The position numbers were made by a program, and so were the translations under genes. The notes beneath the pieces were generated by a model. The model was given only the letters and a program-made list of their open reading frames with translations, did no database searches and was not told where the DNA came from. Shown piece by piece: positions 17 through 49,012 of a stretch of DNA of 49,012 bases (positions within the stretch are counted from its first letter, which is position 1; the number at the start of each line of letters is the position of its first letter). Source of the DNA: a virus; IMG/VR virus record IMGVR_UViG_3300023313_000010, positions 1-49,012 of that record. One strand, written 5' to 3'.

Positions 17-140
17 GGGACGCAGAGGCGCGGTGGGCAAAAACTCAGAATAACTATGTGCTTTAGAGTGCAGGTGCGTTAGAATGCACATAAATACTTA
101 AACCTACCCCCTAGTTTAAATTTAAAATGAGTTTGAGAAT
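17..140. other. Candidate cos/packaging region upstream of terminase
   Basis: Bases 17-38 are strikingly GC-rich (18 of 22) within AT-rich surroundings, begin with GGGACGCAGAGGCGC, and lie just ahead of the small terminase gene, where lambda-type phages place cos. Bases 69-88 contain short inverted copies (GTGC...GCAC). The adapter joins exactly at base 17, which would fit many reads beginning at one physical end. The packaging role is inference from position, composition and the GpA-type terminase. Confidence 0.4.
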
Positions 141-26073: not shown

Positions 26074-27812
26074 TGGTTCAAAGGATTACAGGTTCATTGG
26101 GTTCTTCTTACAGTTTGAGTGATTCCGATAAATCCACTCAAGTTAGAGACGGGTATAAAAAACAATCTGTAAATGATATCGGTGTGAAGTTACAATACGA
26201 TGGCCTATCCATTGTAAACATGGTGGATGAACTTCCGTGGTCTTTTAATACCCCTCGTGATTTACCACTCGCATTAAACTGGTTTAAATTTAAAACCCTG
26301 ACAATGCTTGATTCACTACAGTATAAGGGTCATCCACCAGTGAAGGATGTCAGCTTCAAAGTCGATGGTAGAATAAGTTTTAAAATTTACGATACAGGTA
26401 GTAAATTAAAATATTTTAATTTACTACCTTATGTTGATGTCGGCATTTCTGAAAATTTTTATTCTGTTTCACTGGATTTTGAAAAACCCTTAGCACCAGA
26501 TTCTCAAACATATTTACCGACACTTATGTTTGAATTTAATGAGTCTGATTTATCTACTTTTAACGGGGATTTTATTAAACCCATTGACTATGATAAACTC
26601 AGAACAAGACTATCCTCTTTAAATTCGTCAACTACATACCCTTGGGGTGTAACTAAGATTGTTGACATTTACGAAGATTTAAAATGGGGTTATGGGAATA
26701 ATGATTTTAATGTTGGTGGGGCAGTAAGTAATGAGTATTTGGTTGACGCTGATACGCTTAATTTGCCGACACCTGATTCTACGAGGGTTATTACGTTTGT
26801 GAATGTTGTTAATGTTTATGTTTTACCTGCCAGAACGCCAATACAGTTTTCAGATTTTAAGCTTTCGTATGATATTGATTCTGTAGCTTGGAATTTCTCA
26901 ATGACTGTCCCAGATAAAGCAACTGCGAATATGGTTAAACCAACTCAGTTAAACGTCATCGAATTGGAAGTTAATATCAATGGTTCAGTATTTTTGGTAT
27001 TTGTTGCCAAGACTTCTACCACTAAAAATACTGAGAATGACGGTACTGTTGTCACACGAATAAAATGCAGTGGTTTTTCAATACATAAATTACTTTCACA
27101 TCCTTACAGTTCTAAAAAATCAAAAACTTACGCCACAACAAGCGCACCGTCTGGGATTTTAAACGATCAATTAATCGGTACTGGTTTCACGGGAACTTGG
27201 GGTTCGGTGACTTGGACACTACCTGCCAATACGTTGAGTTATATTGACAAATCACCGTTAGGTGTTATGTCGGAATTAGCAAGCGCGGTGGGTGCTATTA
27301 TATTACCAACACCTGACTCTAAAGATTTTACAATAAAACCCAGATACCCCATATCACCGTGGCAGTGGGATATAATGTCACCAGATATCGCACTTAGTGA
27401 AAACAATTTTTTCAGCATTGATACAGAATGGATACCTCAAGAATCCCCTGATTCAATTTATGTGTTTGGTGAAGATAATAATGGAGTCGCTGTAAAATGC
27501 ACAATAAATGGTCGTGCAGGGAATAAAACATTGCCGTCTGTAACTAACAAATATATGACTGACACGACACCTGCTACTGAACGTGGACGAATAGAAGTGG
27601 CAAAGAATGGGTTTATAGAAATCGTCCCTGTAAGCACTTATGTAGACCCCATAATTGGTATTATACAACCGTTGTCATTAGTGGAAGTTACCGAAAGCGA
27701 TAATGTTACAAAATGGAAAGCTCAAGTGGTCAGTAACTCATTAACATTGAAAAGAAATGGCAATGCTTTAGTGCAGAATTTACAATTAGAGAGGCATTAC
27801 AGTGGCATCTAG
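26073..27812 (+). CDS. Tail hub-like protein
   Basis: A 579-residue protein. Residues about 260-420 resemble hub proteins of long-tailed phages: a strand-rich region (WNFSMTVPDKATANMVKPTQ, IELEVNINGSVFLVFVAKT), then GFSIHKLLSHPYSSKKS, then LGVMSELASAVGAIILPTPD with a helix that binds neighbouring subunits. The C-terminus has QPLSLVEVTESDNVTKWKAQ and a terminal strand. It overlaps the previous gene by one base and the next by 11. Role inferred from pattern and order. Confidence 0.65.
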   Translation: MVQRITGSLGSSYSLSDSDKSTQVRDGYKKQSVNDIGVKLQYDGLSIVNMVDELPWSFNTPRDLPLALNWFKFKTLTMLDSLQYKGHPPVKDVSFKVDGRISFKIYDTGSKLKYFNLLPYVDVGISENFYSVSLDFEKPLAPDSQTYLPTLMFEFNESDLSTFNGDFIKPIDYDKLRTRLSSLNSSTTYPWGVTKIVDIYEDLKWGYGNNDFNVGGAVSNEYLVDADTLNLPTPDSTRVITFVNVVNVYVLPARTPIQFSDFKLSYDIDSVAWNFSMTVPDKATANMVKPTQLNVIELEVNINGSVFLVFVAKTSTTKNTENDGTVVTRIKCSGFSIHKLLSHPYSSKKSKTYATTSAPSGILNDQLIGTGFTGTWGSVTWTLPANTLSYIDKSPLGVMSELASAVGAIILPTPDSKDFTIKPRYPISPWQWDIMSPDIALSENNFFSIDTEWIPQESPDSIYVFGEDNNGVAVKCTINGRAGNKTLPSVTNKYMTDTTPATERGRIEVAKNGFIEIVPVSTYVDPIIGIIQPLSLVEVTESDNVTKWKAQVVSNSLTLKRNGNALVQNLQLERHYSGI

Positions 27813-40556: not shown

Positions 40557-43025
40557 ATGGAATTCAACTATAATGAGGCAAAGAAATTTTGCCAAATACT
40601 TGTTGGTGGAAGTGATGTAAATGTCACGTGGCAAGTATTTTTCGACCCTGATAATATGGGTCAAAGACCTGACTTAGGCAAGAATTGGACAGCATCTTTA
40701 GACGACTCTTTAGAATTTATTAAATACCGACAATCCCAATTGTGTGGAGTGTATCTCACAGTTAATGAAACTGACGGTCATGGTCGTTCTGAATCAAACA
40801 TAACAAAAATTAAATATTTCATCGCAGATTATGACGGGATGGAAGAACCTAAATGGCGAGTAGAACCAACATTTACAACGTCAAGAGACAGTACCCACGG
40901 TCATGCGTATTGGCGCGTATTGGATGAATGCGGTATTGAAGATTATAAGGTTATTCAAAAAAGAATAACCTTAGTTTACAACTGTGATGAACGTGTCATC
41001 GATTTATCAAGGGTGTTACGGTTAGCGGGGAGCTTGCATTTAAAGACCCCTACAGACCCTAAAATGTATTTTGTTGCTAGTCATAGCGGCAAAGAATACT
41101 CAGTTAAAGAATTTGTTGACGCTCATGCTATGGATGCCATAGGTGAAGCTGAATTAAGCAATTGGGAAGATAAAAGACAGGCCAACTTATCGGGTGAGGG
41201 CATTACTGATAATCCTAGATATGTCGAACAAGTTATAAAGTACGCCAAAACACAAGCTACTCCTGCTGTATTGAATAACGGTGGGAGCAACATTTTACTT
41301 AGATCATGTTTGTTTGCGAAAGATAGGGGAATCAGTTATCAAACATGCCAAGAAATATTTTGGGAGCATTATAACCCAAGATGCGAACCTCCTTGGGATG
41401 ACACACCGCAATCTAAATCTCATTTTTTTACAACCATTAAAAATGGTTATGAATATGCCGATAATGCAAGTGGATGCCATACTGCTGTAGGAGTATTCAA
41501 ACAGTTACCTCCGATACCCCCACCTGTTGATGGTTGGGAAGAAAATAAGAAATTAGCACCCACGTTACAAGAGGTTGTTGTTACGGGCGACATCAAAAAG
41601 ACACTCAGAATAACCAAGTTGGAGGGTGAAGTTTTATTGAGCCAATGTACAATAAAATCTGCTCATTATGATTTAGTTAGAGCTTTTGATGGGATGGTTT
41701 TTGATGGTGAAAGAATAATAAGAAGTGGTGAAGTCTTTTACGAGTACGATGTTAAAAAACATGTTTGGCGAGTAATAGGCAAAGATGTCGTCAGGGCATT
41801 GATACAAAGATTTTTTAATGAATATAAACCTTCTGACACATTTACCAACGGCATCTATAATGTGTTTAGAGATTTTGTGAACCATGAACAAATAGATAAC
41901 GGACGTTGGTTGAATAACCCTGATGATGAGTGTCGCGACCTTACCTTATTCAAAAATGGCATTGTTGATTTTTCAGATGTGAATAATATAACCATCAAAC
42001 CACACAGTGTTGATTTCTTTTGCCTTAATAATCTTGGTTATGAATGGGACGAAGAAGCAAAATGCCCCGAATGGATTAAATTTTTAAACACTTTATGGGA
42101 TACCGTCGATACAAAATTAAACATATTAACCTTACAAGAGTTCATGGGTTATATGTTACTTGGCGACACTTCTTTACAAACTTTTTTAATGTTACAAGGG
42201 TTGTCGAGGGGTGGTAAAGGGATAATCACCACTATAATTACTGCCATGATTGGTAAAGAAAATGTGTGTACCCCACCTCTCAGTAAGCTAAATTCTGACT
42301 CAACAATTCACCAAATAATAAAGAGTAAAGCTGTGTTAATTCCTGATGCCCACACTGTAAATAGGAACAATAGAGACAATGTATTGAGTGGGTTTAAAGC
42401 CATGACGGGGCAAGATGATCTTAGCTACCATGAAATGTATGTGGGTGCTAAAACCGCCTCTGTGAGCGCTAAGGTGGTTATGACAGCCAACACTATGCCT
42501 GAATTTGTTGACAGCAGTGGTGCATTGGCTAATCGAATGTTACCTATTGTTTTTCATAAGTCTTTTGCGGGCAAAGAAGACCGTGGATTATCAACTAGGT
42601 TGAAGAAAGAAATAGCGGGGATAACGGCATGGGCGGCAAAAGGTATTAAACGACTAAGGGATAACAATAACCAATTTACAAGGTCTAACGACAGTGCCGA
42701 AGAGTTACAAGAAATTCGTGAGGAAATGTTTCCTCTTTCCAATTTTGTTACACAATGCTGTAGGGTGGGTACAGATAGAGAAGTCGGCATTGACGTGTTG
42801 TATCAAGCGTATCAACTGCATTCTACGATAGGTGGGGTAAAGCTACCTTTTACTAAAATACAGTTCTCTAAGACGCTCAGAACAAGTGAATTACAATTGA
42901 TTAAATGCAGACCGACAGTTGATGGGGTTAGGGTGTCCTCATTTAGAGGGATATCACTAAATGAGGACATGATTAAAAAAATGGGGGTTGGTGGATTTAC
43001 CCCTGTTGTTGACAGTAATGTTTAA
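40557..43025 (+). CDS. Primase-helicase (AEP primase + SF3/D5-like helicase)
   Basis: An 822-residue two-part enzyme. The N-terminal archaeo-eukaryotic-type primase has KYFIADYDG (D91, D93), DSTHGHAYWRV (H114, H116) and IDLSRVLRLAGS (148-159). The helicase part has Walker A GLSRGGKG (548-555, Gly where Ser/Thr is usual), Walker B AVLIPDAH (592-599), the sensor region VVMTANTMPEF (640-650) and the arginine finger in SGALANRML (654-662). This is the P4/D5 phage primase family. It would melt the origin and prime synthesis for the family B polymerase. It is the last gene of the rightward replication set and converges on the small leftward cluster. Confidence 0.92.
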   Translation: MEFNYNEAKKFCQILVGGSDVNVTWQVFFDPDNMGQRPDLGKNWTASLDDSLEFIKYRQSQLCGVYLTVNETDGHGRSESNITKIKYFIADYDGMEEPKWRVEPTFTTSRDSTHGHAYWRVLDECGIEDYKVIQKRITLVYNCDERVIDLSRVLRLAGSLHLKTPTDPKMYFVASHSGKEYSVKEFVDAHAMDAIGEAELSNWEDKRQANLSGEGITDNPRYVEQVIKYAKTQATPAVLNNGGSNILLRSCLFAKDRGISYQTCQEIFWEHYNPRCEPPWDDTPQSKSHFFTTIKNGYEYADNASGCHTAVGVFKQLPPIPPPVDGWEENKKLAPTLQEVVVTGDIKKTLRITKLEGEVLLSQCTIKSAHYDLVRAFDGMVFDGERIIRSGEVFYEYDVKKHVWRVIGKDVVRALIQRFFNEYKPSDTFTNGIYNVFRDFVNHEQIDNGRWLNNPDDECRDLTLFKNGIVDFSDVNNITIKPHSVDFFCLNNLGYEWDEEAKCPEWIKFLNTLWDTVDTKLNILTLQEFMGYMLLGDTSLQTFLMLQGLSRGGKGIITTIITAMIGKENVCTPPLSKLNSDSTIHQIIKSKAVLIPDAHTVNRNNRDNVLSGFKAMTGQDDLSYHEMYVGAKTASVSAKVVMTANTMPEFVDSSGALANRMLPIVFHKSFAGKEDRGLSTRLKKEIAGITAWAAKGIKRLRDNNNQFTRSNDSAEELQEIREEMFPLSNFVTQCCRVGTDREVGIDVLYQAYQLHSTIGGVKLPFTKIQFSKTLRTSELQLIKCRPTVDGVRVSSFRGISLNEDMIKKMGVGGFTPVVDSNV

Positions 43026-43449: not shown

Positions 43450-43731
43450 TTATATATTCTCCCATTTAATTATTTCATAATGACCGCCAATTTCCATCCC
43501 AGTACGGGTAGGGTGAAGTTTCCAAAACTTTCTAATTTGACCAACATTTAGCTCGTGCAAATAAGTTTGCGAATCTTTGCTTATCTGATAAACAACATTA
43601 TCCTGCAAATCATGTTTAGGGAAAAAGGTGTCGGTAATTTTTACACTAACTGTTTTAGGTGTCTCTTTAATTACTTCACCCTTTAATCCTGCCTGAGTTA
43701 TCATCATTCCTTTTAAAATTAATTGTTTCAT
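43450..43731 (-). CDS. Small protein, unknown
   Basis: A 93-residue protein with strand-rich sequence: LKGMMITQAGLKGEVIKE, TPKTVSVKITDTFFPKHD and GGHYEIIKWENI. It could be a small beta barrel with a helix (NVGQIRKFWKL). It overlaps the upstream gene by 4 bases. No family recognised. Confidence 0.62.
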   Translation of the reverse strand: MKQLILKGMMITQAGLKGEVIKETPKTVSVKITDTFFPKHDLQDNVVYQISKDSQTYLHELNVGQIRKFWKLHPTRTGMEIGGHYEIIKWENI

Positions 43732-44042
43732 TTTATTAATACCTCATGTTGTTTGATTACTGTGTTAGGTAATACCCCCTTACCTAATCCTATGTCGCTC
43801 AAGGTGATGGAATGGCGCATTAGTTGTCGCTCAAGTGACTTGAAGTGTTTAGAACGGGTGAGTTTTTGGAGATATTTATACCCCCCTCTCTTGGTTACAG
43901 TTTCTTGAGCGATTAGATTCCTATTTTTATATATGCTAATAATAGAGTTATTATTAGCATCATGTGTATTACTAATAACTAACCCACCTGAATTTATTCT
44001 TTTCATACCCCTTCCTGATTTTGGTGTAACTAAATTATCCAC
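43728..44042 (-). CDS. Small basic protein, first gene of leftward cluster
   Basis: A 104-residue basic protein. The GTG at 44042 follows AGGAG by 6 bases and lies inside an iteron copy (TTATCCAC on the other strand). An ATG 36 bases further in (44006) also has a good AGGAAGG site, so the start is uncertain. The body has KRGGYKYLQKLTRSKHFKSL, which could contact nucleic acid. If it binds the iterons around its own start it might be an origin protein, but no HTH is obvious. Confidence 0.6.
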   Translation of the reverse strand: MDNLVTPKSGRGMKRINSGGLVISNTHDANNNSIISIYKNRNLIAQETVTKRGGYKYLQKLTRSKHFKSLERQLMRHSITLSDIGLGKGVLPNTVIKQHEVLIK

Positions 44043-44157
44043 TTATTTCTCCTAAGTTTATTTGATGACTAAACATATTAAGTGGATGCTAATTACTTGT
44101 TTAATTATCCACTTAAATTAATTTACTTATATTGGATTAACCAATGAAAAGGAGTAT

Positions 44158-44196
44158 ATATCATATTAAGTGGATGTCAATAACTTAATATGATAT
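44158..44196. repeat. 13-bp perfect inverted repeat in origin region
   Basis: ATATCATATTAAG (44158-44170) and CTTAATATGATAT (44184-44196) with a 13-base loop. Each arm overlaps an iteron. Confidence 0.85.
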
Positions 44197-44238
44197 TAAG
44201 TGGATAATTAAACTGAGAATAAATTATCCACTTAATCC

Positions 44239-44613
44239 TGCCACGGTTGGGGCTAAAATTGCCACGGTTGGGGTGTTCTGTAAGTCATTGATTTATAAGG
44301 GATTGCCACGGTTGGGTTTCAAACCGTGGCAACCCTACAGCCCTTTAAAAATGCCGATCGGTCAGCAAATAAGCCCCAACCGTGGCAGATAGTAAAAGAC
44401 TTCTCAAGATGGTATATATAAGTATATATTAAAACCTTGGTTACTGAAAAACCAAGAATCTGAGAAGTGTTTGGCGATCTGCCACGGTTGGGGTGTATTT
44501 GCTGACCGATGCCCATTTTTAAAGGGCTGTAGCCTGCCACGGTTGGGTTTCAAACCGTGGCAATCTTTTATAAATCAATGACTTAGCTTTTGTGGCAACC
44601 GTGGCAACCGTGG
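44239..44613. repeat. Ten CCACGGTT elements
   Basis: Forward copies start at 44241, 44262, 44306, 44482 and 44537; reverse copies (AACCGTGG) at 44322, 44378, 44553, 44597 and 44606. Most are embedded in TGCCACGGTTGGGG. They are GC-rich islands in AT-rich DNA and look like binding sites for one protein. Confidence 0.88.
44281..44585. repeat. Giant nested inverted repeat
   Basis: Bases 44281-44390 are complementary to 44477-44585 over about four fifths of positions with one 1-base shift. Each arm also folds on itself (GCCACGGTT...AACCGTGGC at 44305-44330 and 44536-44561). The 86-base centre continues the symmetry with CTTCTCA (44400-44406)/TGAGAAG (44461-44467) and has its own hairpin CTTGGTT/AACCAAG (44436-44456). 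Confidence 0.9.
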
Positions 44614-44627
44614 TTAAGTGGATAATA

Positions 44628-44706
44628 CTGATGGCATTTAGAGTTATTCCATTAAAGTGAGGTTGAAATAAACTGATGGCATTCGATGAACCTCTATTAA
44701 AGTGAG
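44628..44706. repeat. 45-bp direct repeat
   Basis: CTGATGGCATT occurs at 44628 and 44673 and ATTAAAGTGAG at 44651 and 44696, each pair 45 bases apart; the sequence between is diverged. Related TTAAAGT or TCAAAGT words occur at 44801 and 44893, so these may be repeated promoter elements. Confidence 0.75.
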
Positions 44707-44838
44707 CTATTTTGACGTATAAAAAATAATGGAAAAAAAATAATAATAAAATAATTCAATTTAAAATAAAAAAAATAAAAAAATTATTAAGTGGATTTTT
44801 TTATCAAAGTGTGTTATTCGCAGGTGCGCGTTCCTTTA

Positions 44839-44939
44839 TATTTAATTAAGTGGATTAATTTAAAATAAAACTTGATTAAGTGGGTTATTCTGTTAAAGTT
44901 CGCAAATCTTAAATAAATAGAGAATAAAGATCATGGCTA
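44839..44939 (+). repeat. Promoter/leader cassette, copy 1
   Basis: These 101 bases recur at 45553-45653 with one difference (G44884/A45598). The cassette holds two iterons, a promoter candidate and the first codons (ATGGCTA) of the gene. A 32-base part (44908-44939) occurs a third time at 45123-45154. Confidence 0.9.
44872..44899 (+). promoter_or_regulatory. Promoter candidate in leader copy 1
   Basis: TTGATT (44872-44877), 16 bases, then TAAAGT (44894-44899) preceded by TGT as an extended -10. An iteron overlaps the -35 box and spacer, so iteron binding could repress it. Confidence 0.45.
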
Positions 44940-45127
44940 GCAATAACCAAAACTTAATGGGTACTTTGAGTGATAAAGACACTTATAATAAAGTGGTCGA
45001 ATTGTGCGAATTAATTTGTGAGCTTGAAAATAAAACAGGTTATAGCGAACAAGCAATTAGACAAGGGTATATAAAAATTGTCACTGGTTTGGCTTATGGT
45101 TCAATTAAACTAAATGAATTAACTTAA
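44933..45127 (+). CDS. Small unknown protein, early cluster
   Basis: Sixty-four residues: MASNNQNLMGTLSDKDTYNK, then acidic helix VVELCELICELENKTG and IRQGYIKIVTGLAYGSIKL. It starts at the end of leader copy 1. No family recognised. Helical and slightly acidic, as is common for phage proteins that bind host targets. Confidence 0.68.
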   Translation: MASNNQNLMGTLSDKDTYNKVVELCELICELENKTGYSEQAIRQGYIKIVTGLAYGSIKLNELT

Positions 45128-45147
45128 ATAAATAGAGAATAAAGATC

Positions 45148-45372
45148 ATGGCTAAACTTACTTACTTAAAAGTTTCATTATTTAAACGTTTCCCAATGTA
45201 CAAAGATAAAAATGGGGTGCTTACTTTGAAAGTTCAAAACTATAATGAATTTGTTGATTTTATAAAGAATAAAACAGGCGGTTATGAGTGGTTGTTTTCG
45301 CATGTTAAAAATTACTTTATAAATCAGTATGGTGTAAGCATTAAGTTAAATTATGTCATTGGGGTAAAATAA
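45148..45372 (+). CDS. Small unknown protein, early cluster
   Basis: A 74-residue basic protein: MAKLTYLKVSLFKRFPMYKD onward, ending GVSIKLNYVIGVK. Its start region is the 32-base short copy of the leader, so it shares the initiation signal with the genes at 44933 and 45647. No family recognised. Confidence 0.66.
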   Translation: MAKLTYLKVSLFKRFPMYKDKNGVLTLKVQNYNEFVDFIKNKTGGYEWLFSHVKNYFINQYGVSIKLNYVIGVK

Positions 45373-45374
45373 AA

Positions 45375-45563
45375 ATGATGAGTAAAATAGTAAGTAAAAA
45401 AGACACTCAATTAATGATTAAAGCATTAAGAGAAGCTAATTTAAAAGTATCAAAAATCAATAACGGTTATGAGTGCTTCAATAAAAAAAATGTTTTACTT
45501 TTTAAAGCAATAAAAGGTAAAAATAATTATTTAGTAAGAATGAAGGATAATTTATTTAATTAA
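45375..45563 (+). CDS. Small basic protein, early cluster
   Basis: A 62-residue basic protein. The helix QLMIKALREANLKVSK is followed by strands (GYECFNKKNVLLFKAIKGK, NYLVRMKDN), a pattern like small RNA-binding or toxin-type folds such as HicA, though the HicA histidine is missing and I do not claim the family. It starts at 45375 or at the adjacent ATG 45378. Confidence 0.62.
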   Translation: MMSKIVSKKDTQLMIKALREANLKVSKINNGYECFNKKNVLLFKAIKGKNNYLVRMKDNLFN

Positions 45564-45653
45564 GTGGATTAATTTAAAATAAAACTTGATTAAGTGGATT
45601 ATTCTGTTAAAGTTCGCAAATCTTAAATAAATAGAGAATAAAGATCATGGCTA
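45553..45653 (+). repeat. Promoter/leader cassette, copy 2
   Basis: Identical to 44839-44939 apart from one base. It lies between two small genes and would give the second gene group its own promoter. Confidence 0.9.
45586..45613 (+). promoter_or_regulatory. Promoter candidate in leader copy 2
   Basis: TTGATT (45586-45591) and TAAAGT (45608-45613), 16 bases apart, extended by TGT, as in copy 1. Iterons at 45560 and 45590 flank or overlap the -35 box. Confidence 0.45.
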
Positions 45654-48316: not shown

Positions 48317-48847
48317 CATAGCCATAGTCATATAGTCATAGTCATATAGTCATAGTCATATAGTCATATAGCATAAGCATAGTCATATAGCATAAGCATA
48401 GTCATATAGCATAAGCATAGTCATAGTCATATAGTCATAGTCATATAGTCATAGTCATATAGTCATATAGCATAAGCATAGTCATATAGCATAAGCATAG
48501 TCATATAGCATAAGCATAGTCATATAGCATAAGCATAGTCATATAGCATAAGCATAGTCATATAGCATAAGCATAGTCATATAGCATAAGCATAGTCATA
48601 TAGTCATATAGTCATAAGCATAGTCATATAGCATAAGCATAAGCATATAGCATAAGCATAGTCATATAGCATAGTCATATAGCATAAGCATAGTCATATA
48701 GCATAAGCATAGTCATATAGCATAGTCATATAGTCATATAGCATAGTCATATAGCATAAGCATAGTCATATAGCATAGTCATATAGTCATATAGCATATA
48801 GCATAAGCATAGTCATATAGCATAAGTATAGTCATAGTCATATAGCA
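48317..48847. repeat. 531-bp CATA-word tandem array
   Basis: The array is built almost wholly from the words CATAGT, CATATAG(T) and CATAAG. The commonest higher unit is CATAAGCATAGTCATATAG (19 bp); its first part CATAAGCATAG occurs about sixteen times, with a perfect run of consecutive 19-bp units around 48470-48600. It does not code: 19 is not a multiple of three and stops occur in every frame. It is not a CRISPR because there are no unique spacers. It lies between a terminator and the candidate cos region. Confidence 0.93.
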
Positions 48848-48886: not shown

Positions 48887-49012
48887 GGGACGCAGAGGCG
48901 CGGTGGGCAAAAACTCAGAATAACTATGTGCTTTAGAGTGCAGGTGCGTTAGAATGCACATAAATACTTAAACCTACCCCCTAGTTTAAATTTAAAATGA
49001 GTTTGAGAATAT
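48887..49012. repeat. Terminal direct repeat, right copy
   Basis: Identical to 17-142. On the circular genome this copy and the left copy are one segment leading into the HTH gene at 141. Confidence 0.95.

Follow-up and report, generated by a model that had tools for sequence, protein, structure and literature searches.

The replication origins of most phages are unknown. In P4 the alpha protein unites primase, helicase and an origin-binding winged helix in one polypeptide; the winged helix binds repeats in the origin, and unwinding and priming follow (PMC4234260). Rep of the SaPIs, e.g., SaPI5, and Cch2 of SCCmec are D5_N-family primase-helicases with a C-terminal DNA-binding domain, which recognises short iterons directly downstream of their genes (PMC7581432). 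A stem-loop origin has been proposed for pRN1 with its ORF904 and for BIP-1, which is near-identical to the Bordetella phage BPP-1. Here an AEP primase, an SF3 helicase and a winged helix are combined, and a large stem-loop is located 3' of the gene. In this proposal the stem-loop is central; origin-type iterons were not reported in BIP-1 (PMC4234260).

The DNA which we have analysed is an IMG/VR virus record of 49,012 bases; this whole stretch is referred to as the window. It belongs to a marine bacterial virus with a lytic gene set. The genes are those of a tailed phage, i.e., a Nu1-type small and a lambda-type large terminase subunit, and further a polymerase, an SF2 helicase, an ssDNA-binding protein, an exonuclease and a primase-helicase. 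The large terminase is 61-62% identical to those of Shewanella phage 1/44 and of Nahant phages with Shewanella or Enterovibrio as hosts, and the identity of primase and polymerase with the same phages is about 40%. A DNA similarity search with positions 44000-45000 against phage and plasmid records retrieved no match. We propose that an iteron array in this region is a replication origin, read by the primase-helicase and aided by IHF, and assign to this sequence-based reading a probability of roughly 0.77. Most likely, the origin would belong to the P4 alpha/SaPI Rep type, with an unusual degree of symmetry and with IHF sites.

The array lies in the gap between a leftward ORF (43728-44042) and a rightward ORF (44933-45127). 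A preliminary description had reported a giant nested inverted repeat at 44281-44585, and the two complementary arms are real. An outer pair of 51 nt (44281-44331 with 44535-44585, 84% complementary) and an inner pair of 72 nt (44335-44406 with 44461-44532, 88% complementary) surround an AT-rich centre (44389-44448, 25% GC), which is likely an unwinding element. When the two halves of 44281-44585 are joined with gaps, 122 of 159 alignment columns agree (77%), and the self-complementarity of the intergenic region 44043-44932 exceeds that of first-order Markov shuffles by 38 sd. Each arm contains its own hairpin, as had been claimed: the 28-mer TGCCACGGTTGGGTTTCAAACCGTGGCA is present identically at 44304-44331 and 44535-44562. 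The exact 28-mer was sought in viral contigs and is absent there.

The word CCACGGTT occurs exactly ten times in the genome, five times per strand, which bears out the earlier count, and every copy is within 44241-44613; shuffled windows contain 0.95 copies on average and four at most. The copies start at 44241, 44262, 44306, 44482 and 44537 on the plus strand and at 44322, 44378, 44553, 44597 and 44606 on the minus strand, a near-perfect mirror placement about position 44433. The arms are inside the limits drawn initially, yet four copies (44241, 44262, 44597 and 44606) are outside, and thus the element, a putative replication origin, extends from about 44241 to 44613.

The consensus for IHF binding is WATCAANNNNTTR (PMC10380432). 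The sequence AATCAATGACTTA fits it perfectly and is found at 44281-44293 on the minus strand and, as a mirror image 292 bp apart, at 44573-44585 on the plus strand. It is what the arm sequence TAAGTCATTGATTTATAAGGGA reads on the complementary strand. The 49-kb window has 12 IHF-consensus matches versus 6.2 expected, two of them symmetrically in the arms. The arm sequence TAAGTCATTGATTTATAAGGGA is exactly common to the window and a relative, L009, although their replication proteins share only 40% identity. The 18-base core of this sequence, AGTCATTGATTTATAAGG, is shared exactly with distant phages and was hit in over 100 viral contigs and in 112 genome contigs. A first impression of a mobile or att element, gained from the many contigs, was abandoned: the core equals an IHF-consensus site with an A/T flank, and this likely explains its wide spread. 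Further, an attP site should have a linked integrase gene, and none was found among the window proteins scanned. An N15-type protelomerase telomere was also rejected since it requires a perfect central palindrome and the centre here consists of 54 non-palindromic nt; no protelomerase gene was detected among the window proteins scanned.

When related Shewanella and Vibrio phages are inspected, an equal divergent intergenic region and the same plan emerge, with different words (GTGCCAC, TGTGACA). In L009, L010 and L012, with replication proteins about 40% identical to those of the window, the gap contains 13 copies of GTGGCACA, i.e., all copies of the genome, four IHF-consensus sites and a centre of 12% GC; the outer IHF-consensus sites are 295 bp apart compared with 292 bp in the window. 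The arrays of L007 and L013/G001 are comparable to that of the window, and Shewanella phage 1/44 and Vibrio phage 1.050.O share the plan as well. L008 and L011 use TGTGACA and have a weak overall symmetry. The preliminary description had named collinear relatives devoid of symmetry as an argument against the palindrome. The symmetry is strong in L009 and L010 and weaker in L007, but barely above shuffles in L008 and L011; in all five the plan of iterons, IHF-consensus sites and an AT-rich core is retained whatever the strength of the symmetry. Thus, the plan and, in part, the geometry are conserved, while the word and the palindrome length differ between phages. One may speculate that the giant palindrome is a by-product of an inverted duplication of a half-origin.

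Two further observations concern the same gap. The GenBank records of L008 and L011 both break in the AT-rich centre of the array, at points no more than about 10 bp apart, and the L007 record begins in the right half of the array; perhaps this is sequencing drop-out at the palindrome. Directly to the right of the iteron array there are always two or three tandem elements: in the window two copies of ACTGATGGCATT..YCYATTAAAGTGAG, also written GATGGCATT..TCCATTAAAGTGAG (44627-44706, plus strand), in the relatives the counterpart GGGGCGANT..TCCATTAAAGTG (L007 132-180; L008 210-290; L009 41786-41825).

The probable initiator is the primase-helicase of 822 residues (40557-43025, plus strand), composed of an AEP primase and a D5_N/DUF5906 helicase. 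The profiles D5_N and DUF5906 match above cut-off, and there is an AEP PrimPol match. The closest solved relative is the SaPI5 primase-helicase 7ola (E 5e-13 by sequence, 3e-17 by fold); it is also the best fold match of a structure model of residues 380-822 (pLDDT 90.8). The C-terminal 118 residues (42669-43022, plus strand) are modelled as a winged helix (pLDDT 82.9) of RFX type, which is the probable reader of the iterons. The fold matches the DNA-binding domains of RFX5 and RFX1 (1dp7, TM 0.80), and profile searches return these RFX5 and RFX1 domains at E 1e-7 and 1e-6 and SaPI5 at 5e-4. The similarity to the origin-binding domain of P4 alpha is weak (E 0.29 by profile, 0.63 by fold).

Several properties of the P4 alpha/SaPI Rep class are found together: a primase with a D5/SF3-type helicase, a C-terminal winged helix recognised by RFX profile and by fold, and short repeats at an AT-rich segment, here ten iterons and a core of 25% GC. 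Differences exist as well. Compared with SaPI Rep and Cch2, the window has a long mirrored palindrome and IHF-consensus sites, its array is 1.2 kb away from the gene in a divergent gap, and the bearer, a tailed phage, encodes a polymerase of its own. In P4 alpha the primase is of the bacterial (Toprim) type. As in pRN1 and BPP-1, a large stem-loop is located downstream of a gene for AEP primase, SF3 helicase and winged helix; in contrast to that proposal, iterons and stem-loop of the window form one structure.

Are such arrays linked to primase-helicase genes in general? With an alignment of eight primases as a query 79 viral loci were retrieved, and 81 loci, including the window, L009 and L013, were searched for clusters in which one 8-mer occurs five times or more, with copies on both strands, in a span of 450 bp. 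Such two-strand clusters, with phage-specific words, were present in 29 of the 81 loci, which are not fully independent of each other, and in none of 405 shuffles. They tend to be close to the primase ORF, within 1 kb in 21 of 29 (8.0 expected) and within 300 bp in 17; the distance from array to gene is 1.2 kb in the window and 6.7 kb in L009. The remaining 52 loci, some of them short, have no cluster by this definition. Equally, no iteron cluster was found in KLEA5 and in Vibrio phages, distant relatives with primases 40% identical; in KLEA5 the corresponding gap contains a large inverted repeat. These absences, the distances in the window and L009 and the weak similarity to the P4 alpha domain count against the origin reading. 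Opposite sets of words flank an AT-richer core in L276 (GTGTGACA), L287 (GTGGCGCG) and L332 (GGTCAGGG), and in BPP-1 inverted CGAGGCAA iterons surround an AT-rich core near the primase gene (26607-26710 of that record).

The RFX factors of eukaryotes read the X-box, the half-site of which is GTNRCC with the core GTNRC. This core is contained in 12 of 28 iteron words compared with 5.6% of random 8-mers, a difference for which any p-value is optimistic because the words of related phages are not independent. If only the 20 words located no more than 1 kb from the gene are counted, GTNRC is the commonest of 128 patterns of its form. The word of the window fits only if it is extended to AACCGTGGCA. 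The likeness to RFX factors comprises the winged-helix fold and the GTNRC core in many iteron words; these factors are eukaryotic transcription factors, however, and the resemblance is confined to the C-terminal domain. As judged from the words, the enrichment is a second apparent link between protein and site, apart from position.

The origin reading is based on several lines of evidence. A single centre is the mirror axis of the ten words and of both IHF-consensus sites, and relatives keep this plan in the matching divergent gap with other words. Clusters are linked to primase-helicase genes, the protein is akin to SaPI5 7ola and carries an RFX-like domain, and iteron words are enriched for GTNRC. 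Among the suggestions made at the outset, origin recognition or replication initiation is the one supported by the conserved plan, the IHF-consensus sites, the AT-rich centre and the linkage to the primase-helicase gene. We infer that the primase-helicase binds the iteron word, that IHF binds as well, and that melting and the start of replication occur at the array. Via its C-terminal RFX-like winged helix the primase-helicase would dock to the ten iterons, which flank the AT-rich centre in two mirrored sets. Host IHF would bind at the two symmetric positions, bend the DNA there and bring the half-origins together. By analogy to SaPI Rep/Cch2 and P4 alpha, the helicase modules could assemble face to face as two rings and melt the AT-rich centre. 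The primase module would then lay primers and start both forks, and the phage polymerase would replicate bidirectionally.

Tentatively, and with slightly less than even odds, we extend this to a widespread, hitherto undescribed class of phage origins. It would comprise an AEP-primase/D5-helicase with an RFX-like winged helix, X-box-like GTNRC iterons in two inverted sets and an AT-rich core, in the Shewanella/Vibrio lineage with an IHF clamp. If such a class is real, the origin is predictable from sequence, in the large group of phages which have D5-type primase-helicases origins become locatable by sequence alone, and a code of word versus domain is readable across phages. It becomes possible to test how a single domain family recognises changing words, and the iteron model of P4/SaPI and the stem-loop model of pRN1/BPP-1 merge. 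The RFX-type link would connect the initiators of phages with the fold by which eukaryotic transcription factors read the X-box.

Of the competing explanations an operator array fares best, although we consider it unlikely. A regulator would bind the array and control both early gene sets from divergent promoters, with no role in replication. Indeed, the array is located between divergent gene sets in the window and in all close relatives, and directly to its left is a strong promoter-like site, sigma-70-like TTGACA-16-TATACT (44153-44180, minus strand), which has 11 of 12 consensus bases and points toward the leftward genes; the number of promoter-like hits in the region is at chance. But it is a different word, TTAAGTGGAT, which overlaps this site, is found again where other early genes begin, and thus looks like the operator. 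Further, comparable clusters elsewhere track the primase-helicase gene, and two mirrored sets with an AT-rich core are more than a promoter requires. The TTAAGTGGAT boxes are probably operators of a regulator; eight of ten flank the array (44078-44855), at 44078, 44107 (minus), 44166, 44196, 44226 (minus), 44614, 44787 and 44846, followed by 45560 and 45590. Together the ten boxes (44078-45599) surround early gene starts; relatives have dispersed CTGTTRYAAC boxes instead. TTAAGTGGAT was considered as a DnaA box, as some copies, when reversed, contain TTATCCAC; its conserved part runs past the DnaA consensus, hence it is a different word.

Far less probable is a packaging site. In lambda, cosB combines R sites with IHF, and cosN is GGGCGGCGACCT/CGCGGG. 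By analogy, the small terminase would bind the repeats together with IHF, and in other phages IHF sites and repeated words do adjoin terminase genes. Yet a cosN-like site, GGGACGCAGAGG/CGCGGTGGGC, exists elsewhere in the window, at the record junction (17-40, plus strand, and again at 48887). This putative packaging site resembles lambda cosN, precedes the small terminase gene by about 360 bp and has counterparts with a downstream ACTCAG upstream of the terminase genes of L007, L009, L010, L011 and L012. The array is 4.7 kb away from it, and neither contains a cosN nor is positioned just upstream of the terminase genes as a lambda-type cos would be. As the conserved cos-like site is located elsewhere, the array is not the packaging site. 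The record ends overlap by about 125 bases (48887-49012), and a 16-base remnant resembling an Illumina adapter directly precedes the cosN-like site, as expected of a physical end; the contig is probably broken at the true terminus of the genome. Directly upstream of the cos-like site are dense, short A/T-rich repeats (CATAGTCATATAG; ACATCATCAGCATATG), at 48380-48829 in the window and 3807-4252 in L007.

Still a shade less probable is that a ParB-like protein binds the array as a centromere-like partition site or as an anti-silencing site. A centromere may consist of an iteron array with IHF, and L007 has an orphan ParB-like gene; against this, no ParA/ParB match was obtained among the window proteins scanned, and a lytic gene set argues against partition. 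Binding by the ParB-like protein of L007 was discarded as a counterpart was not found in the window.

Similarly improbable is that a transcript or an extruded hairpin is itself functional, as a non-coding RNA or a cruciform which, e.g., titrates a protein. The folding check proposed initially yields very stable structures of the single-stranded element (z = -25 as DNA, -20 as RNA), and for pRN1 and BIP-1 a large stem-loop origin has been proposed (PMC4234260). However, in L008 and L011 the symmetry is weak while words and IHF sites persist, and the 8-nt loop of the 28-bp inner hairpin has a direct, not a mirrored orientation across both arms. tRNA and Rfam scans of the region gave nothing relevant, all Rfam matches being sub-threshold and to microRNA models; nothing was found in favour of a titrating RNA. 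A cruciform may be extruded, but the explanation does not require it: the palindrome differs in length and perfection between phages, and what is conserved is where the protein-binding words and the IHF sites are placed. Finally, assembly can create large inverted repeats, but a chimeric inverted join, a worry voiced earlier, is scarcely credible since the halves are merely 77% identical, the hairpin loop is unmirrored and independently sequenced relatives carry homologous arrays.

Beyond the array, in a group of viral contigs (L015, L025, L038, L047, L055, L062, L065, L100, L105 and L129) an IHF-consensus site and phage-specific repeats (TGACCC, TGCCCC, TGCACC) adjoin a small-terminase-like gene. 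In L105 a Prim-Pol/AAA_25 helicase is nearby, and the site could be an origin or a packaging site. LAGLIDADG-like or intein-like insertions are present in the viral contigs L017 (4559-7183) and L089 (5471-8023), in the head-tail connector and the large terminase protein.
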